NCBI RefSeq assembly: GCF_000428845.1
Contig: NZ_AUAS01000013.1
Span: forward strand, 1-64,000
Direction of reading: 5' to 3'
Source of the DNA: Dyadobacter alkalitolerans DSM 23607
Lineage (GTDB): Bacteria; Bacteroidota; Bacteroidia; Cytophagales; Spirosomataceae
Length of the DNA: 64,000 nt
The position numbers and the translations under genes are program-made. Positions 2,982 through 31,421 of the stretch are shown here, in pieces; position 1 is the first letter of the stretch, and each line of letters opens with the position of its first letter. Below the pieces are notes generated by a model. It was given only the letters and a program-made list of their open reading frames with translations, made no database searches and was not told the origin of the DNA.

Positions 2982-3890
2982 TCACTTACCAGTCTGGGTC
3001 GTGTACGTACTTTCGAAAATCTTATCGGCGTTGGCGGCTTCGAAGCCGTCTCGGCGGTGTTTTCTGGTGATTTCGGCTGGGGGGATGTTTTGGAATTGGG
3101 GGAGGGCTTTTCTTTCGGCAAATTCTACGTAGGAGCCGGAAATTTCCAGGTGTTCGTTGTTGGCGAATTTGGCGTTGATCATTTCGGCAATGGTGGCACT
3201 TTGTAGCAGGCCGCCGTCTGGGCTGATCTTTATTTTTCCTCCCGAAGTGTTTAAGCGAATGCCATTCTTTTCCAAAAACTCATTAAATGCTGCCACGGTG
3301 TTGTAACCTTCCGGCAGATTATGCACGCTGATCGTGAAGTGGTTGAGATAATAACGATTGTAAATTACCCACGCGGCATACTCGCTTTCCAGCAAAAGGG
3401 ATTTGTAATCTGCCACCGTCGGCGTGCGCCACAAAGGTTTGTGCAGAAATGCGTCGACTTCTGCGCCATTGTCCAGATCCAATGCGTCAACCGGATCGCT
3501 GGTAACTTCATCGGTGTAACTTTTTATAATGCGCTGGCTTTCTTTGGACAGGTCATTTACTCGCAATTCACTTACGAAAATCCGTGGATCAGTTTCTCTG
3601 GGCGGGCTGTACCACCATGCATCGAGCTTTTTGCCTTCGAAAAAATAATGATCGCGCTTTTCGTATCCGTAATGCAGGAAGATCTTCTCAAATGATTGCA
3701 CACCGAGGTTGGCAACGCCCATAGTGCGGAAGGCAATGTGGTCATTTTCAATGTTATCTGCGCTGGTCACAACGCCATCTGCGACCATGGCGTTCAGGAT
3801 TACACCCACGTCAGGAACGCGCTCTTTGTAGCGTCGCATCAGGCCATTTAGTACAATGTCCAGTGTTTCAAGTCTGTGTGTTGCGCTCAT
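2982..3890 (-). CDS. DUF1338 protein, 2-oxoadipate dioxygenase/decarboxylase-like
   Basis: The 302-residue protein carries the DUF1338 signature: NDHIAFRT, HYGYEKRD, KKLDAWWYSPP, PRIFVSELRV and YVEFAER. Characterised members (HglS/YdcJ) are Fe(II) enzymes of vicinal-oxygen-chelate fold that turn 2-oxoadipate into 2-hydroxyglutarate in lysine catabolism. The metal ligands appear preserved as His51, His184 and Glu256. It is much shorter than HglS (about 460 residues), so substrate preference may differ. No other lysine-degradation gene is adjacent; proC lies upstream on the same strand, 70 bp away, hinting at a shared amino-acid theme only. Confidence 0.75.
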   Translation of the reverse strand: MSATHRLETLDIVLNGLMRRYKERVPDVGVILNAMVADGVVTSADNIENDHIAFRTMGVANLGVQSFEKIFLHYGYEKRDHYFFEGKKLDAWWYSPPRETDPRIFVSELRVNDLSKESQRIIKSYTDEVTSDPVDALDLDNGAEVDAFLHKPLWRTPTVADYKSLLLESEYAAWVIYNRYYLNHFTISVHNLPEGYNTVAAFNEFLEKNGIRLNTSGGKIKISPDGGLLQSATIAEMINAKFANNEHLEISGSYVEFAERKALPQFQNIPPAEITRKHRRDGFEAANADKIFESTYTTQTGK

Positions 3891-5076: not shown

Positions 5077-8000
5077 ATGGCTATAAAAGTTGCTATTTCT
5101 CATAAAACCAAATACCAGTTTGACCGGAGCGTTTCCCTTTCACCGCACATTTTCCGACTTCGCCCCGCCCCGCATTCTAGGACAGCCATTGAAGGTTATT
5201 CATTAAAAATCACCCCAGAAAATCATTTCATCAACTGGCAGCAGGATCCCTTCGGCAACTATCAGGCGCGGGTTGTTTTTCCTGAAAAAACGACTGAATT
5301 AAGCGTGGAAGTGGAAGTGATCGCCAAAATGCAGGTGATCAATCCGTTTGATTTTTTTGTGGAAGAATACGCGGAAATGTATCCGTTTGCTTATGAGCCG
5401 ACATTAAAAAAGGAACTTGGCCCTTATCTCGAACCCAGAGAGGCGGGTCCGGCGCTGATGGAATGGGTTGAGAAGGCGAAAGTGAACCGTGATATCAAGA
5501 TCGTAGATTTTCTGGTCTACCTTAATCAGCAGATTTACAACGCTATACACTATAACATTCGCATGGAAGTGGGCGTCCAGACTTGCGAAGAAACATTAAA
5601 CATTAAAAGCGGCTCCTGCCGGGATTCGGCTTGGTTACTGGTCCAGATTCTGAGACATTTGGGCATTGCGTCGCGTTTCGTTTCGGGTTATCTGGTGCAG
5701 CTGACTTCGGACATCAAGTCACTGGACGGTCCGAGCGGCCCGGAAGAAGATTTTACGGATCTGCACGCGTGGACGGAGGCTTATGTGCCAGGTGCTGGCT
5801 GGATCGGCCTCGACCCGACTTCCGGACTTTTTGCGAGCGAAGGCCACATTCCGCTTTGCTGCACGCCCGATTATGCCAGCGCTGCGCCGGTTTCTGGCGC
5901 GACGGACGTTTGCGAAGTGACCTTTGAATTTGATAACAAAGTTTTTCGGATCCACGAAGATCCCCGCGTTACCAAGCCTTATACAGAGGAACAATGGGCG
6001 GCGGTGATGCAGGTGGGGCACGATGTGGAAAAGGATTTGCAGGAAGGTGACGTGCGCCTGACGATGGGCGGCGAGCCAACATTCATTTCGATCGACGACT
6101 TCGAATCGCCAGAATGGAACACGGCTGCGGACGGACCATTGAAAAGACAATTGGCCTATGACCTTTCATTAAGGCTTAAAAAGCGCTTTGCGCATGGCGG
6201 ATTGCTGCATTTCGGTCAGGGCAAGTGGTATCCCGGCGAGCCTTTTCCGAGATGGCAATATGCGCTTTACTGGCGCAATGACGGCGTTCCAATGTGGCGC
6301 AATGATGAGCTGGTAACCAAAGAAGGCCAGACCAAATACACATTCCGTGAAGCTGAAATCTTCACAACAGAACTCACAAAATATCTTGGTTTAGACACCA
6401 ACAACATTACGCCGGCTTACGAGGACCCGATTTACTGGGCGATGGAAGAGGGCAAATTGCCTGTGAATGTGGATCCTTTGAAAGTGAATCTCAAAGATTC
6501 TATTGAAAGACGGACACTGGCCAAATTGCTCGAAAAAGGCCTTAACAATCCTGCTGGCTTTGTTTTACCTATTAAATGGAATGAGAAAGGACAGCATTGG
6601 TCTAGCTCAGCTTGGCAGTTTAAACGCGACCATTGTTTCCTTGTTCCCGGAAATTCGGCAATCGGTTTCCGTTTGCCGCTGAAATCCTTGCCAGAAGTTG
6701 CCAAAGCACATCGCGAGCAGCCGGTGGAGCGCAGTCCGTTTGAAGATTTGCCGACGCTGATCGATTTCAAGCCGGTTGTTGAGTCACGTTATGGGTCGGT
6801 GGCGCCTCCTTATGAGCTGCCGGTGAATGCAATTTTTGAAGAGGAGGAGGATGATGGAAAAAAGACATTAACCGAGAAAGAGACCGAGGATAAGCTGCTT
6901 TTTGAGCTTCCAATCATTAAAACGGCGCTTTGCGTAGAAGAGCGGGAGGGAATCATTTATGTATATCTGCCGCCGACAGATTATCTCGAACATTATCTGG
7001 ACCTGATGGCGTCCATAGAAGCCACGGCCGAAAAGCTGAAAATGCCCGTCCGGATCGAAGGCTATGCTGCGCCAACGGATGCAAGGGTTCAAAAACTGAT
7101 TGTTACGCCCGATCCGGGGGTGATTGAAGTGAACATTCACCCGGCAAAAAACTGGCAGGAACTGGTTGATAATGTGAGTGCGCTGTATGAAGAAGCATTC
7201 TTTTCAAGATTAGGCACGGATAAATTCATGGTTGACGGGCGTCACACCGGAACCGGCGGCGGTAACCACGTGACCATTGGCGGCGCCAAACCTGCCGACA
7301 GCCCCATTCTGCGCCGCCCCGATCTGCTGAGGAGCTTGCTGACTTACTGGCAGCATCACCCTGCATTAAGTTATCTATTTGCCGGACCATTCATTGGCCC
7401 TACAAGCCAGGCGCCGCGCATTGACGAAGGCCGGGATGAGAAGCTTTATGAAGTCGAAATTGCATTTGAGCAAATTCCCGAAGGAGAAGAAGTGCCATTC
7501 TGGATGGTCGACCGCATTTTCAGGAACTTGCTGGTGGACATTACGGGCAATACGCACCGTTCGGAGTTCTGCATGGATAAGCTTTATTCGCCGGATTCCG
7601 CAACGGGGCAACTTGGGATTCTGGAATTCCGGGCATTTGATATGCCGCCGCACAAGCACATGAACCTGGTGCAAACGCTGCTTGTAAGGGCATTGATTGC
7701 GAAGTTTTGGAAAAACCCATATAAGCACAAGCTCATCCGCTGGGGAACGGAACTGCATGACCGCTTCCTGTTGCCGCATTTCGCGTATCTGGACATGGTG
7801 GATGTGGTGAAGGATTTGAAAGATGCGGGCTATAACTTTGACATTTCCTGGTTTGACCCATTCTTTGAGTTCCGTTTTCCACATTATGGCGGTATTACGG
7901 TGGACAACATTCAGCTCGATCTGCGACTGGGCATCGAGCCCTGGCACGTCTTGGGAGAAGAATTGTCCAACAGCGGCACCGCCCGTTTTGTGGACTCTTC

Positions 8001-8505
8001 GCTGGAACGCTTGCAGGTGAAAGTGAGCGGATTTGTAGAAGGAAGGCACATTCTGGTTTGCAACGGCTGCCGTGTTCCGCTGCGCAGTTCGGGAATTAAG
8101 GGCGAGTTTGTTTCGGGAATTCGATACAAGGCCTGGAACCCGCCATCGGCATTGCACCCGACCATCGGGGCGGATGCGCCGCTGGTTTTTGACATTGTGG
8201 ATACCTGGAATAACCGTATATTGGGCGGTTGCACTTACTTTGTTTCGCATCCGGGAGGCCGCGCTTTTGACACTTATCCGGTGAACAGTTTTGAAGCAGA
8301 ATCACGCAAAATAAGCTTATTCCAGGGTTTTGGGCATACGCCATCTGCCAAGCAGGAAGTGCCTATATTGGAAAAATCGACGGGTGCGGTGTCACGGTTT
8401 ATTGCTGAGACGAAAAAAGAAATGAAGAGCGATACGCCGATCGAATTAATCAATCCGGAGTATCCTAATACGCTGGATTTACGTAAATACTGGAAATCAA
8501 AATAG
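5077..8505 (+). CDS. Transglutaminase-like protease fused to DUF2126
   Basis: The 1142-residue protein starts with a bacterial transglutaminase N-terminal beta domain (about 1-90), followed by a transglutaminase/papain-like core (about 135-275). The catalytic triad is Cys181 (SGSCRDSAW), His230 (DLHAWTEAY) and Asp246 (GLDPTSG). From about residue 320 it is DUF2126, with TMGGEPTF (329-336), HTGTGGGNHVTIGG (723-736), HRSEF (827-831) and LEFRAFD (849-855). The DUF2126 motifs resemble those of glutamine-synthetase/GCS-type ligases, which is an inference. There is no signal peptide, so it is cytoplasmic. It is the first gene of a three-gene operon with 30 bp to the next gene. Confidence 0.85.
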   Translation: MAIKVAISHKTKYQFDRSVSLSPHIFRLRPAPHSRTAIEGYSLKITPENHFINWQQDPFGNYQARVVFPEKTTELSVEVEVIAKMQVINPFDFFVEEYAEMYPFAYEPTLKKELGPYLEPREAGPALMEWVEKAKVNRDIKIVDFLVYLNQQIYNAIHYNIRMEVGVQTCEETLNIKSGSCRDSAWLLVQILRHLGIASRFVSGYLVQLTSDIKSLDGPSGPEEDFTDLHAWTEAYVPGAGWIGLDPTSGLFASEGHIPLCCTPDYASAAPVSGATDVCEVTFEFDNKVFRIHEDPRVTKPYTEEQWAAVMQVGHDVEKDLQEGDVRLTMGGEPTFISIDDFESPEWNTAADGPLKRQLAYDLSLRLKKRFAHGGLLHFGQGKWYPGEPFPRWQYALYWRNDGVPMWRNDELVTKEGQTKYTFREAEIFTTELTKYLGLDTNNITPAYEDPIYWAMEEGKLPVNVDPLKVNLKDSIERRTLAKLLEKGLNNPAGFVLPIKWNEKGQHWSSSAWQFKRDHCFLVPGNSAIGFRLPLKSLPEVAKAHREQPVERSPFEDLPTLIDFKPVVESRYGSVAPPYELPVNAIFEEEEDDGKKTLTEKETEDKLLFELPIIKTALCVEEREGIIYVYLPPTDYLEHYLDLMASIEATAEKLKMPVRIEGYAAPTDARVQKLIVTPDPGVIEVNIHPAKNWQELVDNVSALYEEAFFSRLGTDKFMVDGRHTGTGGGNHVTIGGAKPADSPILRRPDLLRSLLTYWQHHPALSYLFAGPFIGPTSQAPRIDEGRDEKLYEVEIAFEQIPEGEEVPFWMVDRIFRNLLVDITGNTHRSEFCMDKLYSPDSATGQLGILEFRAFDMPPHKHMNLVQTLLVRALIAKFWKNPYKHKLIRWGTELHDRFLLPHFAYLDMVDVVKDLKDAGYNFDISWFDPFFEFRFPHYGGITVDNIQLDLRLGIEPWHVLGEELSNSGTARFVDSSLERLQVKVSGFVEGRHILVCNGCRVPLRSSGIKGEFVSGIRYKAWNPPSALHPTIGADAPLVFDIVDTWNNRILGGCTYFVSHPGGRAFDTYPVNSFEAESRKISLFQGFGHTPSAKQEVPILEKSTGAVSRFIAETKKEMKSDTPIELINPEYPNTLDLRKYWKSK

Positions 8506-8535
8506 GTTTTCAGTACAAACCCTACTTACTACATT

Positions 8536-11091
8536 ATGCTTACCGAGGCTCCTGTGGATCTTTTACAATCCTATCAAAACGGACTCACTTCTTACGACGA
8601 AGTGCTGGATCGGAACGGGAATGTAAAGCCGTACTGGAAAGCACTTTTTTCGCAGCTGGAAAGGCTGGGCATGGATGAACTGAAAATCCGGAACCAGGAA
8701 ATCATCAGCAAGCTCCGGGAAAACGGGGTGACTTATAATGTGTACGGCACGCCCGACGGCCTCAACCGTCCCTGGCAGCTGGACCCTATCCCTTTTTTAA
8801 TTGAACAAAAAGAATGGAACGGCATTGCCAAAGGCTTGCAGCAGCGCGCAATCCTGATGGATCTGATCCTGAAAGACCTTTACGGGCCCAGAAAGCTGGT
8901 GAAAGACGGCATTATCCCGGCAGAACTCGTTTTTGACAACACCGGCTTTTTCCGCCCGTGCATCGACATAAAAGTGCCGGGCAATAATCAGCTGACCATG
9001 TACGCGGCCGATATGTCGCGCGGTCCCGATGGGCAGATGTGGATTGTGGACAACCGCACGCAGGCTCCTTCAGGGTCGGGTTATACATTGGAAAACCGTG
9101 TGGTAATGAGCAAGCTGCTTCCTGAATTGGCTGAGGGAATGTATGTTAGCAAGCTGTCGCCTTATTTTAACAGTCTGCAAAACACAGTTTTAAAATTATC
9201 GGATAAAAGAAAAGACGCGCCGAACATTGTTTATCTCACGCCGGGGCCAAATAACGAAGCCTATTTCGAGCACGCTTATCTGGCTTCCTATCTGGGTTAC
9301 ACGCTTGCGCAAGGTGATGATCTGCTGGTGCGGAATGGCAGTGTCTGGCTGAAATCCATTGATGGTTTGCAAAAAGTGGACGTGATCATCCGTCGTATCG
9401 ACGACGACTGGTGCGATCCGCTTGAACTGCGTGAAGATTCCCGTTTGGGCGTTCCCGGATTGTTGCAGGCCATCAGGCTTGGTAATGTGCAGGTTTTGAA
9501 CCCGCCTGGGACGAGTGTTTTGGAGAATCATGCGTTTCATGCCTTTATGGGCAATATTTCCAATTATTTTTTAGGTGAAAAACTGATTATGCCCTCCGTG
9601 GCCACCTGGTGGTGCGGGCATGTGAAAGAGCTCAATTACGTACTGGAACATATGGATGAGCTGATCATTAAGAAAGCAAATCGCAAAACAAAATTCAGGT
9701 CGATTTACGGGAGACTGCTGACTTTTGCAGAGAAAGACGAGCTGAAAAAAATGATCATTCAGCGGCCGCACGAGTTTATCGCCCAGCAGGAAGTGAGCTT
9801 ATCCACAACGCCGTCGCTGATCAATGGCAACATTGAGCCGCGTTATGCTGCATTAAGGGCATTTATGGTGGCCGATGAGAGTGGCTACCACGTCATGCAA
9901 GGCGGACTGACGCGGAGCTCACCGGTGAAGGACCGTTTTGTGATTTCAAATCAATACGGCGGGTTGTCGAAAGACACCTGGATTGTGTCGGACAAAACGG
10001 AAGACATTCAGGAAAAGATCGTTCTGACTTCACCGATCTCGGTTAACAAGCACGTCTCGCTCCCCAGCCGCAGCGCGGAAAACCTGTTCTGGATCGGGCG
10101 TTATTGCGAGCGGACGATGGCGGTGATCAAGTTTATGAACATTACGATCAATGTGCTTAACCTGGACAGGAATTTCGGCGGCTCGGCCAAGCAGGAGCAC
10201 ATTAAGATCCTGCTGCAGTCACTCACACATTTGTCTTCCACTTATCCGGGTTTTCTGGAAGAGGAGGATTTAATGTCAGATCCTTATACTGAGATCATTG
10301 ACCTGATTTCCAACACCAGCCGTCCCGGCACCATTGCGGCCAATATCGGCGCGTTTCTGAATGCTGTTGGAGCGGTGCGGAACCAGTGGGACCAGGAGAT
10401 CTGGCGGATCGTGGATCTGATCGATAATGGTTATCATGAGATCCGCAATGCGTCGTCGATGCATAACAATAACATTCAGAAGACTCTGGATGGATTGTTC
10501 AATAATATGTTCACGTTTTTGGGCGTGATCGCAGAAAGTATGCCGCGCGACAACAGCTTTTTGCTCCTCGAAACAGGCAAGCTGATCGAGCGCATCCTGT
10601 CGCGGATCAGTGTTATCCAATCTAATTTTGGTGTAAAAAACACGCCTGGCGTTGAAAATGAGCTGATCGAGGCGACATTGATCAACCATCATTTGCTGGT
10701 GAATTACAGGCAGATCTATAAGTCACATTTGAGCGTGGAAGCGATGCTGGATATGGTTTTGTTGGAAAAAACATTGCCTTACTCGCTGGTTTATATGCTC
10801 GATGAGCTGAAAAACAACATTAGCAAGCTGCCCGTCACGACCCGGAGCGAGAGGCTTAATGAAGCGCAGAAATTCGTTTTGAAGGCGGCTACAATGGTCA
10901 AGCTGGCTGATGTGAGCGATTTGAGCAAATGTAATGTGGGATTGGAAAGACGGGAATTGTTCAACCTCCTTTCGGAAGTATCCAAGCTCATCAGCTCCGT
11001 TTCGGTGAACCTGACGAACATGTATTTCAGCCACACTTTCATGCATCATTCATTTTACGATCCGATGGATTACGATACGGATGAAATATAA
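8536..11091 (+). CDS. Circularly permuted ATP-grasp protein fused to an alpha-E domain
   Basis: The N-terminal ~490 residues form a circularly permuted type-2 ATP-grasp domain, with MYAADMSRGPDGQMWIVDNR, the string TPGPNNEAYFEHAYLA from residue 235, and PGTSVLENHA. The C-terminal part from about residue 509 (LPSRSAENLFWIGRYCERT) is an alpha-helical alpha-E domain. In many bacteria these are two separate genes, so this is a fusion of 851 residues. ATP-grasp enzymes form carboxylate-amine or carboxylate-thiol bonds through acyl-phosphates; the substrate is unknown for this family. The stop overlaps the next gene by 11 bp, suggesting translational coupling with the second transglutaminase. Confidence 0.85.
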   Translation: MLTEAPVDLLQSYQNGLTSYDEVLDRNGNVKPYWKALFSQLERLGMDELKIRNQEIISKLRENGVTYNVYGTPDGLNRPWQLDPIPFLIEQKEWNGIAKGLQQRAILMDLILKDLYGPRKLVKDGIIPAELVFDNTGFFRPCIDIKVPGNNQLTMYAADMSRGPDGQMWIVDNRTQAPSGSGYTLENRVVMSKLLPELAEGMYVSKLSPYFNSLQNTVLKLSDKRKDAPNIVYLTPGPNNEAYFEHAYLASYLGYTLAQGDDLLVRNGSVWLKSIDGLQKVDVIIRRIDDDWCDPLELREDSRLGVPGLLQAIRLGNVQVLNPPGTSVLENHAFHAFMGNISNYFLGEKLIMPSVATWWCGHVKELNYVLEHMDELIIKKANRKTKFRSIYGRLLTFAEKDELKKMIIQRPHEFIAQQEVSLSTTPSLINGNIEPRYAALRAFMVADESGYHVMQGGLTRSSPVKDRFVISNQYGGLSKDTWIVSDKTEDIQEKIVLTSPISVNKHVSLPSRSAENLFWIGRYCERTMAVIKFMNITINVLNLDRNFGGSAKQEHIKILLQSLTHLSSTYPGFLEEEDLMSDPYTEIIDLISNTSRPGTIAANIGAFLNAVGAVRNQWDQEIWRIVDLIDNGYHEIRNASSMHNNNIQKTLDGLFNNMFTFLGVIAESMPRDNSFLLLETGKLIERILSRISVIQSNFGVKNTPGVENELIEATLINHHLLVNYRQIYKSHLSVEAMLDMVLLEKTLPYSLVYMLDELKNNISKLPVTTRSERLNEAQKFVLKAATMVKLADVSDLSKCNVGLERRELFNLLSEVSKLISSVSVNLTNMYFSHTFMHHSFYDPMDYDTDEI

Positions 11092-11956
11092 GCTGATCCA
11101 TAAGACGGAATATAAATACGCGGAGGCGGTCAATAATTACCATAGTCTGGTGTGCCTCGCGCCGCGCTCGCTGCCGAATCAGCTGTGCCAGAATTTTGAC
11201 ATTAAAATTTCCCCCGAACCTTCGCAGATCATCGACCGGAAGGATTTTTACGGAAATACAACGCATTATTTTTCCCTGCATTCGCCGCACAAAACCCTTA
11301 CCGTGCTCACAACGGCCATGGTGGAACGGCTTACCGAGGAAACGGGCTCTTTGTTTTTGCCCTCCGAAATTTCCTGCGAAGCAGCCCGACAGCAACTTCT
11401 GCGCGACCGGGCATTGAAGATTTCGCTGCTGGAATACATGCTGCCGAGCCCGATGATCAAATGGGACCACGAGGTGCTGAATTTTGCGAAAGATTGTTTT
11501 CAGGAAGGAGTGCCGCTATATGCTTGTGTGGAAGCGCTTTGCGCTAAAATTTTCCATGAATTCGATTTCGTCCCGGATTTTACAACCGTACACACGCCTA
11601 TTAAGGATGTTATTGCAGCTAAAAAAGGTGTTTGCCAGGATTTTTCGCATCTGGCCATTGCCTGCATCCGGAGTTTTGGCTTCGCGGCGCGCTATGTGAG
11701 CGGCTATCTGGAAACGCTGCCGCCGCCCGGAAAGCAGAAATTACAAGGCTCGGATGCGTCGCATGCCTGGATCTCGGTGTACATTCCCGACTTCGGCTGG
11801 TGCGATTTTGACCCGACGAATAACATTGTTCCCGGTGAACGGCACATTGTCACTGCCTGGGGCCGCGATTACAGCGACGTGCCGCCATTGAAGGGCATCA
11901 TTTTCAGTTATGGAAAACACACGCTGAAAGTAGAAGTGGATGTGATTCCGGTGTGA
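11081..11956 (+). CDS. Transglutaminase-family cysteine protease-like protein
   Basis: The 291-residue protein has a transglutaminase N-terminal domain (about 1-85, starting YKLIHKTEYKY) and a core with Cys185 (KKGVCQDFSH), His228 (ASHAWISVY) and Asp244 (FDPTNN), so the triad is intact. There is no signal peptide. It is homologous to the N-terminal part of the first gene in this operon, so the operon carries two transglutaminase-fold enzymes. In this bacterial family, peptidase or amidase activity is more likely than protein crosslinking, which is an inference. The 11-bp overlap with the upstream fusion gene supports a common function. Confidence 0.85.
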   Translation: MKYKLIHKTEYKYAEAVNNYHSLVCLAPRSLPNQLCQNFDIKISPEPSQIIDRKDFYGNTTHYFSLHSPHKTLTVLTTAMVERLTEETGSLFLPSEISCEAARQQLLRDRALKISLLEYMLPSPMIKWDHEVLNFAKDCFQEGVPLYACVEALCAKIFHEFDFVPDFTTVHTPIKDVIAAKKGVCQDFSHLAIACIRSFGFAARYVSGYLETLPPPGKQKLQGSDASHAWISVYIPDFGWCDFDPTNNIVPGERHIVTAWGRDYSDVPPLKGIIFSYGKHTLKVEVDVIPV

Positions 11957-24097: not shown

Positions 24098-24189
24098 ATT
24101 GAGTTATTAGTTCAATAGGCAAAACTTTTTTCTGGAAAAGATTTACCTTCGTGTTCAATGCTGTTTGTTCAACGTTTAAAAGAAGTCTT

Positions 24190-25542
24190 GTGCGAAAAAG
24201 GGTCGTTATTTTGGGTGGGGGAGAAAGTGGCACCGGCGCTGCAATCCTTGCCAAATCAAAAGGTTTTGACGTGTTTTTATCAGATCGTGGCCAATTGAAC
24301 CAAAAATACATTGACGTCCTTGACCGCGAGCAGATTTCGTTTGAACAGGGAATGCATTCAGAGTCAAGGGTTCTTGAAAGTGACCTCGTTATAAAGAGTC
24401 CCGGCATTCCGGATACGGCCGCGCTGATCGTTGCATTGAAGGAAAAAGGAATTCCTGTTATCTCTGAAATCGAGTTTGCTTCCCGCTACACTGATGCCAG
24501 GATAATTGCCATTACCGGCAGCAATGGTAAGACCACTACAACGCTGCTCACGTATCACCTTTTGAAAAATGCAGGAATAAATGTTGGCCTGGCAGGCAAC
24601 ATTGGAGACAGTTTTGCATGGCAGGTTGCTGAAAAGGAATTTGACTATTATGTGCTGGAAATCAGCAGTTTTCAATTAGATAATATCCAGGATTTTCATC
24701 CGCAGATCGCCGTTCTGCTGAACATTACACCCGATCACCTAGATCGGTATGGCTATGATTTCCAGAACTATATCAATTCAAAATTCAACATTGTTCAAAA
24801 TCAGACTGCGGAAGATCATCTGATCTTTTTTGAAGACAGCGAAGTGATCGCCGCCGAGCTTTCCAAACGCAACATTGATTCTCATCAGATAAAAGTATCG
24901 CTTGCGCATAAACCTGCGGAAGGCGCTTTTCTGCATGAAGGAAAATTGATTTCAAATGTTGCCAACGGCTCGTTTGAACAGGTTTTTGATGAATTACCCA
25001 TTAAGGGCCCGCATAATGCAATCAATGCAATGTCCGCAATAGCAGTTGCGCAGCTTGTCGGCATTAGTTCCGAGAAGATTTCAGAGGGCTTGAAATCCTT
25101 TACCAACGCGCCGCATAGGCTTGAATCAGTGGAAGTTATCGATGGTGTGACTTACATTAATGATTCAAAAGCAACCAATGTTGATTCTGTATTTTACGCA
25201 TTGGGCAGTTTTGAAAAACCGATCATTTTAATTGCAGGCGGAGTGGACAAAGGCAATGATTATAGCCAGATAGAAACGCTTGTACGTAATAAAGTGAAGG
25301 GTTTAGTAGTTCTTAGTAAAGATTCCGAAAAGTTGGAAAAATACTTTTCCGGAATTACTCCTCAAATATACATAACCCAGGACGTCCAGGATGCGGTAAA
25401 TAAAGCGCAGGAATGGAGTATTCCGGGGGATATTGTACTTCTTTCTCCTGCCTGCGCAAGTTTTGATTTATTTAAAAACTACGAGGACCGGGGTGAAAAA
25501 TTTAAAGCTGCTGTCAGAAACCTTACCATTCATAATAACTAA
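24190..25542 (+). CDS. murD: UDP-N-acetylmuramoylalanine--D-glutamate ligase
   Basis: MurD adds D-glutamate to UDP-MurNAc-L-Ala in peptidoglycan precursor synthesis. The protein (about 450 residues) has the N-terminal VVILGGGESGTGAA, the Mur ligase P-loop ITGSNGKTTTT, then LEISSFQLD, NITPDHLDRY, and YINDSKATN in the C-terminal domain. The open frame begins at a GTG at 24151, but GTG 24190 starts right before the N-terminal Rossmann-like strand as in homologues. It is the first gene of the local division cluster, with ftsW 21 bp downstream. Confidence 0.93.
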   Translation: MRKRVVILGGGESGTGAAILAKSKGFDVFLSDRGQLNQKYIDVLDREQISFEQGMHSESRVLESDLVIKSPGIPDTAALIVALKEKGIPVISEIEFASRYTDARIIAITGSNGKTTTTLLTYHLLKNAGINVGLAGNIGDSFAWQVAEKEFDYYVLEISSFQLDNIQDFHPQIAVLLNITPDHLDRYGYDFQNYINSKFNIVQNQTAEDHLIFFEDSEVIAAELSKRNIDSHQIKVSLAHKPAEGAFLHEGKLISNVANGSFEQVFDELPIKGPHNAINAMSAIAVAQLVGISSEKISEGLKSFTNAPHRLESVEVIDGVTYINDSKATNVDSVFYALGSFEKPIILIAGGVDKGNDYSQIETLVRNKVKGLVVLSKDSEKLEKYFSGITPQIYITQDVQDAVNKAQEWSIPGDIVLLSPACASFDLFKNYEDRGEKFKAAVRNLTIHNN

Positions 25543-25563
25543 TAAGCATTACCGGTTACCATT

Positions 25564-26718
25564 ATGGATTTCTTGCTCAAATCAAGAGAAGACACGCAGG
25601 CATGGTTCAGCAAAAATCTGAAAGGCGATCCCTGGATCTGGGGGATCTGCATTGTAATGCTGATGTGGAGCATTGTGGTGGTGTACAGCGCAAGTGTAAA
25701 GGACGCGTACAGCCAGATGGACGGGAACACCGAATACTATCTTTACAAGCACGTCCTGTTGTGCTTTCTGTCGCTGATGGTTATGTATTTCGTCCATCGC
25801 ATTCCCTATATCAAATTTGTTTATGTGACCCGGCTCGCCGTCTGGAGTTCAATTTTGCTCTTGATTTTTACAATGTTCTTCGGGACGTCGGTGAATGATG
25901 CAGCCCGGTGGATAGAAATTCCTGTTATAGGCCAGCGCTTTCAGCCTTCCGAGTGGGCGAAAGTGGCTTTGATTGCGCATTTATCATTGATCCTGGCCAG
26001 GCACATCAAAGGCGGCTGGAACACGCGGGAGCTTTTTACAGAGCCGCTGGCATTGGTAGGAATCGTTTGCGGGCTGATTTTTACAAGTAATGTTTCTACG
26101 GCAGTTATGCTGGCGGGCATTTGCTTTCTTTTAATGTTTGTAGGCAAAGTGCCGTTACACTATCTGTTTTTCACCGCACTAGGGCTCGTTTTCTTCGCGA
26201 CCATTGCCATTTTGCTTAATTCAACACAACGATCGGGAACGGCCCAAAACCGGATTTCCGCTTTTTTTGATAAAGATGTTGTGGTATATCAATCTCAGCA
26301 ATCTTACATGGCCATGGCCCGAGGCGGATTGTACGGAGAAGGCGTCGCGAAAAGCCGTCAGCGCCGCTTCCTGCCTGAGCCTCAAAAAGACTTTATTTTC
26401 GCTGTTGCCGTGGAAGAATACGGCACATTAGGTGGCACCATTCTGATCATTCTCTATCTCATTCTTTTATACAGGGGCTTAAAAGCCATTGAAGCAACAA
26501 AACGCCCGTTTGGCGGGCTGCTTTCCGCCGGACTCACATTCATTGTCGTCAGCCAGGCATTCTCGGCTATGGCCGTTACGGTAGGGCTGGTGCCGGTTAC
26601 GGGGCAAACATTACCATTTTTTAGTCAGGGCGGAACGTCTTTGCTCTTCACCGGGATCGCGATGGGCATGATCCTGAGCGTAAGCCGCGGGGAAACAGTA
26701 GAAGAGAAAAAGATTTAA
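25564..26718 (+). CDS. ftsW: Septal peptidoglycan polymerase FtsW
   Basis: The 384-residue SEDS-family membrane protein has about ten membrane segments. Diagnostic strings are GTSVNDAARWIEIPVIGQRFQPSEWAK split over the second loop, MARGGLYGEGVAKSRQ, KDFIFAVAVEEYGTLG and the C-terminal LVPVTGQTLPFFSQGGTSLL. FtsW polymerises lipid II at the septum with its PBP partner. Between murD and murG it follows the classical cluster order. The murG start is 1 bp after its stop. Confidence 0.93.
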   Translation: MDFLLKSREDTQAWFSKNLKGDPWIWGICIVMLMWSIVVVYSASVKDAYSQMDGNTEYYLYKHVLLCFLSLMVMYFVHRIPYIKFVYVTRLAVWSSILLLIFTMFFGTSVNDAARWIEIPVIGQRFQPSEWAKVALIAHLSLILARHIKGGWNTRELFTEPLALVGIVCGLIFTSNVSTAVMLAGICFLLMFVGKVPLHYLFFTALGLVFFATIAILLNSTQRSGTAQNRISAFFDKDVVVYQSQQSYMAMARGGLYGEGVAKSRQRRFLPEPQKDFIFAVAVEEYGTLGGTILIILYLILLYRGLKAIEATKRPFGGLLSAGLTFIVVSQAFSAMAVTVGLVPVTGQTLPFFSQGGTSLLFTGIAMGMILSVSRGETVEEKKI

Positions 26719-26719
26719 A

Positions 26720-27817
26720 ATGTCAAAAAAGGTCATTATCAGCGGCGGCGGCACGGGCGGACACATTTATCCGGCCATTGCAATAGCCAATGCTTTGCAA
26801 AAAAAGGATCCGGATCTCGAAGTGCTTTTTGTGGGTGCTTTGGGAAAAATGGAAATGGAAAAAGTGCCGCGCGCAGGTTACGAGATCGTAGGTTTGCCCA
26901 TAGCGGGTTTAAAAAGATCCTTGTCTTTGGATAATCTCCTGGTTCCGTTTAAGCTTTTAAACAGCCTATCCAAAGCAAAACGGATCATAGCAGATTTTAA
27001 ACCCGACGTTGCGGTAGGAGTGGGCGGTTTTGCGAGTGGTCCCTTGCTCATGATGGCGTCACTGGCGGGCATCCCGACATTGATCCAGGAGCAGAACTCT
27101 TATGCGGGCATTACCAATAAGTTTTTGGGTAAAAAAGCAAATAAAATCTGCGTGGCATATCCGGGAATGGAGGCATTTTTTCCTGCCGAGAAGATAGTGC
27201 TTCTGGGCAATCCGGTAAGGAGCGACATTGTGGATGTTTCTGCCAGAAATAAGGAAGGGCTGGTTGAATTTGGCCTCAATGGTGCGCATAAGACTTTGTT
27301 TGTCATGGGTGGAAGCCTTGGAGCCAGATCAATTAATGAGGGCATTAATGCAGGCTTGCCCCGGTTGCTCGAAGCGGGTTATCAGGTTTTGTGGCAAACG
27401 GGAAGAAGTTACATTGATACGGCCAAGCAAACCATTGCAGACCTTGGAACAGATAAAATAAAAGCTTTCGACTTCATATATACGATGGACCTGGCTTATG
27501 CGGTTGCCGATGTCGTGATTTCCAGAGCAGGCGCATTGTCTGTTTCGGAGCTATGTCTGGCTGCAAAACCATCGATCCTGGTGCCATTTCCGGCCGCGGC
27601 TGAGGATCATCAGACGAAAAACGCATTGACATTGGTGGAGCAGGATGCAGCATTAATGATCAAAGATTCAAAAGCCATGCAAGATCTTGTTCCTCAGGCG
27701 CTTCAATTGTTAAAGGATATTGCAAAACAGGAGGAGTTGAGGCTAAACATCAGGAAGCTGGCCCGGCCCAATGCTGCTGATGACATTGCAGCGGAAGTTT
27801 TTAATTTAATTAAGTAA
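26720..27817 (+). CDS. murG: Lipid II synthase MurG
   Basis: MurG transfers GlcNAc from UDP-GlcNAc to lipid I on the inner membrane face. The 365-residue GT-B protein has the glycine-rich ISGGGTGGHIYPAIAIANAL at the N-terminus, VGVGGFASGPLLMMASLAGIP, QEQNSYAG, VMGGSLGARSIN, and the UDP-binding SRAGALSVSELCLAAKPSILVPFP at mid C-terminal domain, followed by AEDHQTKNA. All motifs are in order and length is normal. Confidence 0.96.
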   Translation: MSKKVIISGGGTGGHIYPAIAIANALQKKDPDLEVLFVGALGKMEMEKVPRAGYEIVGLPIAGLKRSLSLDNLLVPFKLLNSLSKAKRIIADFKPDVAVGVGGFASGPLLMMASLAGIPTLIQEQNSYAGITNKFLGKKANKICVAYPGMEAFFPAEKIVLLGNPVRSDIVDVSARNKEGLVEFGLNGAHKTLFVMGGSLGARSINEGINAGLPRLLEAGYQVLWQTGRSYIDTAKQTIADLGTDKIKAFDFIYTMDLAYAVADVVISRAGALSVSELCLAAKPSILVPFPAAAEDHQTKNALTLVEQDAALMIKDSKAMQDLVPQALQLLKDIAKQEELRLNIRKLARPNAADDIAAEVFNLIK

Positions 27818-27838
27818 ATAATCTCAGGAATTGATCTT

Positions 27839-29242
27839 ATGTCGTCATCTATGACAAATTGGAAATACGTATATTTTGTTGGAATCGGCGGAATAGGCAT
27901 GAGTGCATTGGCGAGATGGTTTAAGGCCAATGGTTTCAATGTAGCAGGTTATGACAAGACATTGACAACATTAGTCCAAAAGCTCCAAGATGAGGACATT
28001 ACTGTAACGCTTGAAGACGAAATTGGCACTATTCCAGCCGAGTTCGCGGCAAATCCTGATGAAACGCTTGTGATCTACACGCCGGCAGTTCCTGTTCAGC
28101 ATAAGCAAATGATCTATTTCCGGGATAATAACTTCCTGATTTTAAAGCGTTCGCAGGTTTTAGGATTGTTAACCAAAAATCTGAGAACAATTGGTGTTGC
28201 CGGAACGCACGGAAAAACAACAACTTCCTCGCTGGTAGCACACATATTACGTCATGCGAAGGTGAACAGCACTGCTTTTCTTGGAGGAATTACGCAAAAT
28301 TATGGAACAAATCTCCTCCTTAATGAGCCAACAGACAACCTGGAAGAGGTTTTTTGTGTGGTGGAGGCCGATGAGTTTGACAGATCCTTTTTAACCTTGT
28401 TTCCAGAGATCGCGATTGTTACTTCCACCGACGCGGATCATCTGGACATTTATGGAAAGCATGAAAATGTGCTCGAATCGTTCCGGGATTATGTAAGCCA
28501 GATTGACGACAACGGTGTACTTTTTATGCGGGAAGGATTGGAGCTGGCTTCATCAACAAAAGCAAAAGTGCTGACCTATTCGCTCAATTCAGGAGATTAT
28601 CATTCAGCAAACATTCACATTGAAAACGCCCGTTTTGTTTTTGACGTCATTCATCCTGACGGTAGAATCGAAGGGATTGCGATGAAAATCCCAGGTTACC
28701 ATAACATTGAAAATTCCATCGCAGCTAGCGCGGTGGCTTTGCATTTGGGTGTGGATCCGGAAAAAATCAAGGAAGCACTCGAAAATTATGGCGGCGTAAA
28801 ACGGCGCTTCGAATATCAGCTTGAAGAGGACGGCCACATTTACATTGACGATTACGCCCATCATCCGACGGAAATCGAAGCATTTCTCTCGTCTGTAAAG
28901 GGCCTGTATCCGGGAAGACATGTAACGGCGATTTTCCAACCGCACCTGTTCACCCGCACACGCGATTTTGCGGACGGATTTGCCGAGAGCCTCTCACTGG
29001 CTGATCGGCTTCTTCTGCTGGAAATTTACCCGGCGAGGGAACAGCCTATTGAAGGAGTGAATTCGGGAATGCTGATGGCAAAGATTACTGCAAAGGAGAA
29101 ACAACTTATCACAAAAGATAAAGTTTTGAACGTTTTAGCTGATTTAAATACGGATATTGTGGTGACAATAGGGGCCGGAGACATTGATACATTGGTAGAA
29201 CCGATCAGGAACTTGCTGAAAAATTCAATTGTGAATAATTAG
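27839..29242 (+). CDS. murC: UDP-N-acetylmuramate--L-alanine ligase
   Basis: MurC adds L-alanine to UDP-MurNAc. The 467 residues begin with YFVGIGGIGMSALARWF, then have the ATP P-loop GVAGTHGKTTTSSL, VVEADEFDRSF, TSTDADHLDIYG and the C-terminal IDDYAHHPTEIEAF. These are the family-specific strings that separate MurC from Mpl and MurD. It lies 21 bp after murG and 25 bp before ftsQ, in normal cluster order. Confidence 0.96.
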   Translation: MSSSMTNWKYVYFVGIGGIGMSALARWFKANGFNVAGYDKTLTTLVQKLQDEDITVTLEDEIGTIPAEFAANPDETLVIYTPAVPVQHKQMIYFRDNNFLILKRSQVLGLLTKNLRTIGVAGTHGKTTTSSLVAHILRHAKVNSTAFLGGITQNYGTNLLLNEPTDNLEEVFCVVEADEFDRSFLTLFPEIAIVTSTDADHLDIYGKHENVLESFRDYVSQIDDNGVLFMREGLELASSTKAKVLTYSLNSGDYHSANIHIENARFVFDVIHPDGRIEGIAMKIPGYHNIENSIAASAVALHLGVDPEKIKEALENYGGVKRRFEYQLEEDGHIYIDDYAHHPTEIEAFLSSVKGLYPGRHVTAIFQPHLFTRTRDFADGFAESLSLADRLLLLEIYPAREQPIEGVNSGMLMAKITAKEKQLITKDKVLNVLADLNTDIVVTIGAGDIDTLVEPIRNLLKNSIVNN

Positions 29243-29267
29243 TCAAAGCATTTTTAATATTACTAAG

Positions 29268-30044
29268 ATGTTACGTAAATTTGACTATCCATGGCTTTTG
29301 TTAAAACGTAGTTTATGGCTCATTTTGCCAATAGCCGGGATAGGCATGGCAGAAAATAAGCTTGGTAATCAGCGTTGTACAAATCTTGTGATATCCATTG
29401 AAGGAGATTCGGGAGCAAGGTTCCTTAATCAGATGGATGTACGCATGCTGGTAACTGAAAACGGAGCAGATCCGCTGTTAGGCAGCAGGTTAAGTGACGT
29501 TGCACTCAATGATTTAGAGCATCGGGTGCGCAGGAACAAACTGATCAGGAAGTGTCAGGTTTATCGTGACTTGAAAGGGAATGTGGTGGTAGAAGTGGAG
29601 CAGGAACGGCCGCTGGCCAGATGGATCAACACTTCTGAAAATGGCGAAATGCGCAATTCATCTGGTTACTATATCAGTGATGAGGGCGTTTTTTTTCCGT
29701 TATCGGATAGTTACTCGGCCAGGACATTGCTGGTTTCCGGTTCATTTTTCAATGATCCTGAAAAATTAAAGACAACCAAAGGGGCTTCATTGATGGAGCT
29801 TTTGCGCTTTATAAATGCAGATCCCTTTTGGAAAGCACAGGTAGCACAGCTGGACGCTGACAAAGATGGTGAAATTCATATGATGACGGTCCTGGGGGAC
29901 CAGCGCATTGAGTTTGGATCGGCAGAAAATTATGAATCCAAATTCGATAAGCTCAAAATGTTCTATAACAAGATATTGAGCCAGGACTGGAGCCGGTATA
30001 AAAAAATTAGTATTAAGTTTCAGAATCAAATAGTTTGTGAATAA
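29268..30044 (+). CDS. ftsQ: Cell division protein FtsQ-like
   Basis: The 258-residue bitopic protein has a short cytoplasmic N-terminus, one membrane helix (about 13-28, LILPIAGIGMA region), a POTRA-like domain around residues 40-120 (with RRNKLIRKCQVYRDLKGNVVVEVEQERPLAR as its end), and an FtsQ beta domain. FtsQ scaffolds the divisome. Identity rests mainly on size, topology and the position between murC and ftsA, because FtsQ sequences diverge strongly. Confidence 0.82.
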   Translation: MLRKFDYPWLLLKRSLWLILPIAGIGMAENKLGNQRCTNLVISIEGDSGARFLNQMDVRMLVTENGADPLLGSRLSDVALNDLEHRVRRNKLIRKCQVYRDLKGNVVVEVEQERPLARWINTSENGEMRNSSGYYISDEGVFFPLSDSYSARTLLVSGSFFNDPEKLKTTKGASLMELLRFINADPFWKAQVAQLDADKDGEIHMMTVLGDQRIEFGSAENYESKFDKLKMFYNKILSQDWSRYKKISIKFQNQIVCE

Positions 30045-30059
30045 TAATTCACCATCAGC

Positions 30060-31421
30060 ATGGCACACGAAAAAATTGTAGTAGGCGTAGATATTGGGAG
30101 CACGAAAATTACCGTGGTTGCTGCACAGGGAGCCGCGTCGGGTTCTCGTCAAAACAATATTGAAATTTTAGGTTTTAGCGAAGTCCCTGTTCCCAAAGGC
30201 GCAGTTGTAAACGGAGCCGTTGAAAATATAAAACAAGTTGGAACCGCAGTTCGTGAAGCACTCGCGGAAGCATCTTCCCGCTCGGACCTGGACATTGCCG
30301 TTGTGAATGTTAGTTTTGGCGGCACACAGGTAAAGGTAAGTCAGCATAATGATGGCGTGATCCGGCCTTCGGCGTCTTCCGGCGAAGAGGTTACACAAAG
30401 AGATGTGGACCAGCTTGTTGACGATATGTACAGGGCTAAAATTGAGCCTAATTACGATGTTCTGCATGTTTTACCCATGGAGTTTGTCGTAGACAATTCT
30501 ATGAATGTGCGGGAACCTGTGGGCAGGACGGGTATTAAACTGGGCGGTAACTTCCTGATTATCTCGGCAAACAGTCAGTCTGTTCTGCGTACGAAAAAGA
30601 GTCTGGCAGATGCAGACCACAATTTGAAATGCGACAAGATGGTTTTTGCGCCGTTGGCGACCAGTCTTGCGGTTTTAACAGACAATGAAACAAAAGCCGG
30701 CATTGCGCTGGTGGATATCGGGGACCATACGACGGACCTCGTCATATATCATGACAGCATTGTACGCCACATTGCTACTTTCCCGATTGGCGGCAGGCAT
30801 ATTACGAATGACCTCGCAACAGGTTGTGGCATTCAGGTGGAAAATGCAGAGCGGTTGAAACACGAATACGGCGTGGCCATTGCTGCCGACGTTCCGCTAA
30901 ACATTGAAATCCTGGTTAACTTCCTGGCCGGGCGTGCTCCTAAGGCGGTTTTAAAGAAAAATGTAGCATTGATCATTGAAGAGCGATTGAAAGAGATCGC
31001 AGCGATGGTTTATGCAGAAATTATCAAATCAGGATATCTGGATAAGCTTATCGGCGGCATAGTGCTTACGGGCGGGTCTGCGAATATTGATGAGATTGAA
31101 AAGCTCTTTGAGAAAGTAACCAACATGTCAGTTCGGGTTGGGTATCCTGAAAACCTGGAAAGAACCGCCAAAGCAGATGCGGTCAGCAATTCTTCATATA
31201 GCACAGCGATCGGTCTGGCCTGGGCCGGACTTCGTAATATAGATCCCCGGGTAAAATCGGTTTGCAAGCCTACGACTTCATTTAACACAGGTGCTGTTGT
31301 GCAACGTGAAAAGGTAAAGGAAATTCCCCCTAAGGAAGAGCCAGGTAAGAAAGTCGGGACTTTTTGGGATAGCTTTAACAGCATTATTCGCAAAAAAGAT
31401 GATGGTCTGAGTGACTATTGA
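30060..31421 (+). CDS. ftsA: Cell division protein FtsA
   Basis: FtsA is the actin-like protein that tethers FtsZ to the membrane. The 453-residue protein has the phosphate-1 block VGVDIGSTKITVV at 8-20, an SHS2 (1C) insertion at about 85-165, the phosphate-2 block GIALVDIGDHTTDLVIY and the adenosine block IVLTGGSANI. The C-terminus ends with FWDSFNSIIRKKDD, an amphipathic stretch that fits a membrane-targeting helix although it is not at the extreme end. It lies 15 bp after ftsQ and 34 bp before ftsZ. Confidence 0.95.
   Translation: MAHEKIVVGVDIGSTKITVVAAQGAASGSRQNNIEILGFSEVPVPKGAVVNGAVENIKQVGTAVREALAEASSRSDLDIAVVNVSFGGTQVKVSQHNDGVIRPSASSGEEVTQRDVDQLVDDMYRAKIEPNYDVLHVLPMEFVVDNSMNVREPVGRTGIKLGGNFLIISANSQSVLRTKKSLADADHNLKCDKMVFAPLATSLAVLTDNETKAGIALVDIGDHTTDLVIYHDSIVRHIATFPIGGRHITNDLATGCGIQVENAERLKHEYGVAIAADVPLNIEILVNFLAGRAPKAVLKKNVALIIEERLKEIAAMVYAEIIKSGYLDKLIGGIVLTGGSANIDEIEKLFEKVTNMSVRVGYPENLERTAKADAVSNSSYSTAIGLAWAGLRNIDPRVKSVCKPTTSFNTGAVVQREKVKEIPPKEEPGKKVGTFWDSFNSIIRKKDDGLSDY

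Follow-up and report, generated by a model that had tools for sequence, protein, structure and literature searches.

We analyzed a three-gene operon near the start of a 64,000-nucleotide stretch of the Dyadobacter alkalitolerans DSM 23607 genome (contig NZ_AUAS01000013.1, positions 1 to 64,000 of the forward strand; hereafter the window). The operon is real and belongs to a predicted kind of system that is already known, here in a variant whose ATP-grasp protein is probably an old pseudo-enzyme. It joins two transglutaminase-fold proteins with a DUF2126 domain and with an ATP-grasp domain fused to an Alpha-E domain, and DUF2126 is the more probable ligase of the operon. The functions of DUF2126, Alpha-E and the proteasome relative Anbu have been a standing question since about 2008-2009. 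The natural choice for an assay in this operon would be the ATP-grasp protein, which is probably inactive; our result redirects attention to DUF2126 and to the standalone ATP-grasp, and names nitrogen limitation as a growth condition. The probable pseudo-enzyme is old and, in several phyla, still under purifying selection, which may itself provide a handle on how the complex works.

The operon and its degenerate ATP-grasp

The three open reading frames, all on the forward strand, lie exactly at 5077-8505, 8536-11091 and 11081-11956, with an intergenic gap of 30 bp followed by an 11-bp overlap, and encode proteins of 1142, 851 and 291 amino acids. Gene 1 encodes a predicted bifunctional amidase/ligase, in which Pfam places Bact_transglu_N at residues 6-82 and Transglut_core at 146-247 (together the transglutaminase part, 5092-5817), followed by DUF2126 at residues 277-1136 (5905-8484; 1300 bits). 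In gene 2, CP_ATPgrasp_2 at residues 86-461 (8791-9918; 486 bits against a cut-off of 32) is followed by Alpha-E at residues 509-831 (10060-11028; 182 bits); PDB 3n6x is a homologue of the protein (E 3e-85). Gene 3 encodes a second transglutaminase-fold protein with Bact_transglu_N and Transglut_core. NCBIfam models gave zero families for each of the three proteins at E 0.01.

We aligned 56 fused ATP-grasp domains, the window's included, with 55 standalone proteins, taken from named loci, plasmids, genomes of the phylum and the host genome itself. Every standalone paralogue, including one elsewhere in this genome, keeps the Glu and Asn of the ExN motif (as E-D-N) and the GGYG loop (55/55 each), whereas the fused copies keep the Glu in 1/56 and the Asn and the loop in 0/56. 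We take the ExN Glu and Asn to be metal ligands, as in glutathionylspermidine synthetase, and the loop presumably has the nucleotide role it has in ATP-grasp enzymes in general. Gene 2 reads D172-N173-R174 at the ExN site (9049-9057) and T385-K386-F387-R388 at the GGYG site (9688-9699), so that it lacks both features of catalytic CP_ATPgrasp_2 ligases while still matching the whole-domain profile by homology. In the fused copies the DDK motif is also altered (E at the first position in 52/56, then mostly N or S and P), as is the SSQ stretch, and the GGYG site has no replacement consensus, one loop Gly being kept in 20/56. Other positions are retained (the E240 equivalent in 56/56, R436 in 55/56, D156 in 49/56 and K374 in 48/56), and because some positions are conserved in both groups, a pocket may survive in the fused ATP-grasp. 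Since the ExN Asn and the GGYG loop are gone from all 56 fused domains and kept in all 55 standalone proteins, we read the fused ATP-grasp as probably an old, retained pseudo-enzyme that is very unlikely to form bonds, and the gene 2 protein as probably a helper with a supporting, non-catalytic role.

The fused and standalone ATP-grasps form two clades (FastTree support 1.0, branch 0.87, without re-rooting; IQ-TREE ultrafast bootstrap 100 for the split, branch 1.10), with a similar tip depth in both (1.04 fused, 0.95 standalone). The ratio of nonsynonymous to synonymous substitution rates (dN/dS) of the fused domain is 0.04-0.15, at dS 0.7 to 1.5, in 5/7 pairs with unsaturated synonymous sites, which indicates purifying selection and thus a domain that is being maintained. 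We rejected the idea that the ATP-grasp gene has decayed in the host alone, given this selection and the loss of the Asn and the loop from 56/56 fused copies. An open-access literature search for pseudo-, inactive or degenerate ATP-grasps, which did not extend to the text of Iyer et al. 2009, found no paper. The all-helical Alpha-E domain retains the conserved ER motif: across 78 fused and standalone sequences, W20, R23, R27 and G182 (numbered along the aligned stretch of the window's protein) are invariant and the ER glutamate stands at 90% or more. Its structure model has a predicted local distance difference test score (pLDDT) of 92, and its best PDB match reached only E 0.23.

The DUF2126 domain of gene 1 matches its Pfam family (PF09899, labeled 'putative amidoligase') over positions 1-826 of 826. 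More than 100 columns are invariant over 54 aligned DUF2126 domains, including GGEPTF, GKWYPGE, DGxHxGTGGGNH, GNTHR and ExR; a more distant DUF2126 from Granulicella departs from some of these motifs in a separate 15-sequence alignment. The structure model (pLDDT 80.8, predicted template modeling score 0.82) has as its seven top Foldseek matches in the PDB six glutamine synthetase chains and one gamma-glutamyl-methylamide synthetase, all weak at E 0.13-0.31, and the next match is an antibody chain at E 0.34. DUF2126 was reportedly described in the 2009 survey by Iyer and colleagues as a circularly permuted, glutamine-synthetase-like ligase, and such a permutation would explain weak sequential alignments with glutamine synthetase. 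We consider this putative glutamine-synthetase-like amidoligase the predicted ligase, and probably a likelier bond-maker than the fused ATP-grasp. The word DUF2126 occurred in no paper of the open-access literature searched. Phage carriage was rejected, DUF2126 having no match in 50,697 phage records.

Bond breaking is better assigned to the transglutaminase domains. Protein 1 has the triad Cys181/His230/Asp246 and protein 3 the triad Cys185/His228/Asp244. Among aligned relatives, window included, the protein 1 triad is kept at C in 84/84, H in 83/84 and D in 82/84, the remainder being gaps, and that of protein 3 in 46/46 at each position; the Cys-His-Asp signature of transglutaminase-fold cysteine enzymes is thus present in both window proteins and in their relatives.

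A preliminary description of this DNA had reported the tight operon, the circularly permuted ATP-grasp, Alpha-E and DUF2126 domains and the two transglutaminase-fold enzymes with intact triads, and all of these were borne out. Its view of the ATP-grasp protein as the bond-former is not supported, the ExN and GGYG motifs being lost. The synthesis and turnover of an amide or peptide compound that it proposed is still the best reading, with DUF2126 as the likelier maker. It also called the system uncharacterized, which holds for the biochemistry; yet related clusters have published nitrogen-limitation data, and a system of this kind was predicted in 2009 (Iyer et al., as cited in PMC6376114 and PMC5666114).

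Anbu and the gene set across genomes

The host genome (6.29 Mb, 50 contigs) has, besides the DUF2126 operon, a full but scattered Anbu-type set: Anbu is on contig 10, contig 6 carries a standalone ATP-grasp with intact motifs, and on contig 8 a second Alpha-E lies side by side with a transglutaminase, with another transglutaminase at a distance of about 6 kb. DUF2126 is present in one copy, in the window. A proteasome-family search of the whole genome gave two matches, both on other contigs and none in the window. One, encoded on contig 10 and 240 amino acids long, has a designed Anbu structure as a match at E 3e-35, natural Anbu structures following from E 8e-34 onward; the other looks like HslV. 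The operon therefore does not contain the Anbu gene of an Anbu operon, and the idea of an organism without Anbu is rejected. The preliminary description, which saw no Anbu and suggested looking in the rest of the genome, was right for the window and wrong for the genome, and its remark that related gene sets often carry Anbu agrees with the presence of Anbu in 25/50 DUF2126 genomes.

In a phylum sample of 247 genomes, 11 have DUF2126 and 236 do not. The divergent fused Alpha-E occurs in 8/11 of the former versus 0/236 of the latter, standalone Alpha-E in 11/11 versus 84/236, and Anbu in 6/11 versus 11/236. One Alpha-E left out of the divergent fused count is of the classical type (7.4e-99) and lies in an open frame of 844 amino acids in a genome without DUF2126 (G090:C12:321752-322708), possibly an independent fusion; another genome (G151), with one Alpha-E match below the family cut-off, was also left out. 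Beyond the phylum, the same three-gene order recurs in Granulicella, in Azospirillum records, in a Nitrospirota bin (L106) and in many of the best 80 named loci, a conserved set of DUF2126, ATP-grasp, Alpha-E and transglutaminase across phyla. Because DUF2126 is scarce (11/247) and the same arrangement recurs in other phyla, the grouping is far beyond chance.

A scan for DUF2126 with one genome per species gave at least 593 matches, and we worked with the 80 best loci among them. Neighborhoods were tallied by tblastn, as the open reading frame caller can lose genes in GC-rich DNA and missed all system genes of one locus (L204). Within 10 kb of DUF2126, with some loci ending at contig edges, the fused ATP-grasp was found at 48/80, the standalone one at 46/80 and Anbu at 18/80. 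Whole genomes were examined for 50 of these 80 (57 with long flanks minus 7 removed by hand), with fused and standalone forms told apart by open-frame length and motifs checked in the 56 and 55 aligned proteins. A standalone-length ATP-grasp is present in 49/50 and the fused one in 42/50. The sole genome without a standalone-length copy, L118, is a metagenome bin publicly available under the title Helicobacter pylori PMSS1; it carries the operon, and the title looks wrong. Anbu, sought with a single protein query that could miss distant copies, was found in 8/8 genomes without the fused protein and in 17/42 with it. With the phylum sample added, the counts are 11/11 without and 20/50 with the fused protein (Fisher p 3e-4, uncorrected for kinship), and each of the 61 DUF2126 genomes of this pool, in which a genome may occur twice, has the fused module, Anbu or both. 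The fused module and Anbu thus look partly interchangeable in other DUF2126 genomes.

Gene order varies around this core. A 91-kb IncFII plasmid of Enterobacter roggenkampii (p1_120063; L090, 5775-14966) carries the whole five-gene set in the order standalone ATP-grasp, Alpha-E, DUF2126 protein, fused ATP-grasp/Alpha-E and transglutaminase; IS6-family transposase genes lie about 4-5 kb off on both sides, arsC is nearby, and PLSDB types the plasmid as non-mobilizable. Caballeronia has the same five genes plus an inserted metallopeptidase gene, and Burkholderia has them plus an extra transglutaminase-like stretch. On an Acidithiobacillus caldus megaplasmid (L091), the DUF2126 set includes two Anbu-like genes and lies near ntrC and glnL; its transglutaminase stretch is not fused to DUF2126, and an APC permease and an aliphatic amidase are farther along. 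In three Bacteroidota genomes, a divergent DUF2126 lies beside an ATP-grasp/Alpha-E/Anbu operon.

We scanned 97 hand-chosen open reading frames of the 280 outside the system and found 111 Pfam families, with Peptidase_Mx (5) and its zinc ribbon (5), citrate synthase (4) and the FAD-dependent oxidoreductase family DAO (4) at the top and glutaminase at 2; as a clue to the substrate these led nowhere. The putative zinc metallopeptidase formed by Peptidase_Mx and the zinc ribbon lies beside or within DUF2126 clusters and was found by tblastn at 7/86 loci (L096:13359-14414, L158:6227-7330, L159:6155-7273, L150:6040-7095, L166:6051-7190, L138:15242-16282 and L093:6995-8050). In the window, the operon is flanked upstream by pyrroline-5-carboxylate reductase (proC) on the opposite strand and downstream by pyruvate dehydrogenase E1 beta and a DksA-like zinc-finger protein. 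A gene of the 2-oxoadipate dioxygenase/decarboxylase family (PF07063, 225.6 bits) at 2982-3890 adjoins proC on the same strand, and 24151-31418 holds ordinary cell-wall and division genes, of which the scanned ones include two Mur ligases, an FtsW-family protein and FtsA.

Proposed role and its alternatives

The reading we favor, to which we give about an even chance, is that the operon forms the DUF2126 arm of a system for making and breaking an amide bond, of the peptide or gamma-glutamyl type, and that this system is linked to nitrogen limitation in some Proteobacteria. DUF2126 would use ATP to activate a carboxylate and join it to an amine, and the transglutaminase domains would hydrolyze or transfer that bond through a thioester, so that gene 1 would hold ligase and cysteine amidase in one chain and work like glutathionylspermidine synthetase/amidase. 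The pseudo-ATP-grasp/Alpha-E protein would be a non-catalytic partner that holds the substrate, or that pairs either with DUF2126 or with the ATP-grasp and Alpha-E from elsewhere in the genome, of which that ATP-grasp has the motifs. A bolder form of this idea, which we regard as rather doubtful, is that the ancient, dead ATP-grasp/Alpha-E serves as a carrier or docking subunit of the DUF2126 ligase in the place that Anbu holds in other lineages, making a two-module tagging or amide-storage machine in which a duplicated ligase has turned into a substrate holder.

The nitrogen link comes from related clusters. In an ntrC mutant of Burkholderia cenocepacia H111, four adjacent genes annotated in order as DUF404/407, DUF403, transglutaminase and large transglutaminase protein were down by log2 8.2, 9.4, 9.4 and 6.0, and the cluster was counted among shared sigma-54 and NtrC targets (PMC5491218). 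Another B. cenocepacia strain has the same gene order, its large protein being transglutaminase-DUF2126, with a sigma-54-like site whose start lies 48 bp ahead of the first ATP-grasp match. Judging by gene order and annotation, we take the H111 cluster to be orthologous to this DUF2126 set. In Pseudomonas putida, PP_2686-2688 rose 11-37-fold under nitrogen limitation in three strains, and PP_2685, the first gene of the PP_2685-2688 operon, was likened to a proteasome beta subunit, with NtrB/NtrC control thought likely (PMC7801951). PP2685-2687 are also listed as raised under nitrogen limitation (PMC3325844), and in a metagenome study transglutaminase, Alpha-E and ATP-grasp domains co-vary with urea-metabolism domains (PMC3597751). 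Among our loci, a sigma-54-like site lies within 400 bp upstream in 14 of the 80 with enough DNA (of 84), against 5.2 expected (Poisson p 0.001). By analogy with these homologues, we infer a role under nitrogen limitation in the host.

Several observations weigh against the amide-cycle reading. The fold likeness of DUF2126 to glutamine synthetase is below significance, with no PDB match at E 0.001 or better, and comparing the profile of DUF2126 with those of two types of glutamine synthetase revealed no link. To our knowledge, no substrate, product or activity has been described for DUF2126, Alpha-E or these transglutaminases. The motif loss in the ATP-grasp leaves room for a different nucleotide reaction. 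Because the 400 bp upstream of the window operon contain no sigma-54-like site and the scanned genes around it appear to have housekeeping roles, the nitrogen link reaches this operon by homology only. In P. putida, induction of PP_2686-2688 persists in an rpoN mutant (14-20-fold), which argues against simple sigma-54 dependence. PP_2685 itself changed little in the wild type (1.12), with values of 4.81 and 1.45 in the other two strains (PMC7801951). Finally, the ATP-grasp of Yersinia bercovieri freed phosphate from ATP with no stimulation by glutamine or glutamate (PMC6376114).

Protein tagging, which has been proposed for such gene sets (Iyer et al. 2009, as cited in PMC6376114 and PMC5666114), would mean that proteins are tagged with amino acids or a short peptide by DUF2126 and the motif-bearing ATP-grasp, that the transglutaminases together with Anbu take the tag off or degrade the protein bearing it, and that the pseudo-ATP-grasp holds the target or the tag. 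We think this somewhat unlikely. The presence of Anbu in half of the 50 DUF2126 genomes, and in 6/11 of those in the phylum sample, fits it, but Anbu was not found in the other 25/50, and the Anbu of Y. bercovieri is reported to have shown neither peptidase activity nor specific binding to the operon proteins (PMC6376114). Nor was a ubiquitin- or Pup-like family among the 25 commonest of the 111 Pfam families in the 97 neighbors, the other 86 families not having been viewed and proteins below 100 amino acids not having been scanned.

Another alternative, conjugation of a small metabolite such as a polyamine or thiol amide, would have no nitrogen link in Bacteroidota and would make nitrogen control a proteobacterial addition. 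It accords with the missing upstream site of the window operon, with the presence of such sites in just 14/80 stretches, and with the name putative glutathionylspermidine synthase that depositors gave to 3n6x. We nevertheless hold it to be unlikely, since both versions of the gene set are reported to be under nitrogen regulation, in Burkholderia and in Pseudomonas (PMC5491218, PMC3325844, PMC7801951) and the Acidithiobacillus copy adjoins ntrC and glnL. Very unlikely, in our estimate, is a fused ATP-grasp that remains catalytic because its rearranged active site uses a different metal arrangement or a different nucleotide, as happens in some pseudokinases; the four retained positions and the strong purifying selection would suit such an enzyme, but the ExN Glu and Asn, glycine loop, DDK and SSQ are altered together, and the loop lacks a replacement consensus.

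Comparison with known systems

The rlo/rim operons of Pseudomonas also combine an ATP-grasp, a transglutaminase-like protein and a protease (PMC12239564). They differ in RloB, a membrane-anchored inactive transglutaminase, and in RloC, which has 24% identity to RimK, and their excerpted descriptions name neither DUF2126 nor Alpha-E (PMC12239564); membership of these operons was rejected on these differences. The Anbu operon of Y. bercovieri and Pseudomonas, with ATP-grasp, Alpha-E, transglutaminase and Anbu, consists of homologous families, all four of which the host has in scattered form, whereas the window operon lacks Anbu and contains DUF2126 together with a fused pseudo-ATP-grasp. Glutathionylspermidine synthetase/amidase, in which an ATP-dependent ligase and a cysteine amidase share one chain, resembles gene 1 in this joining, and its ATP-grasp is related to gene 2; in the window, however, the presumed ligase is DUF2126 and not the ATP-grasp, and the presumed amidase has a transglutaminase fold. 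There is also a close likeness to the system of DUF2126, circularly permuted ATP-grasp, Alpha-E and transglutaminase that the 2009 amidoligase survey of Iyer and colleagues is said to have predicted. The families and their operon linkage are the same, namely a glutamine-synthetase-like ligase, ATP-grasp, Alpha-E, transglutaminase and an Anbu-type hydrolase, but in D. alkalitolerans the ATP-grasp of the operon is degenerate and fused to Alpha-E, and the motif-bearing ATP-grasp and Anbu lie on other contigs.

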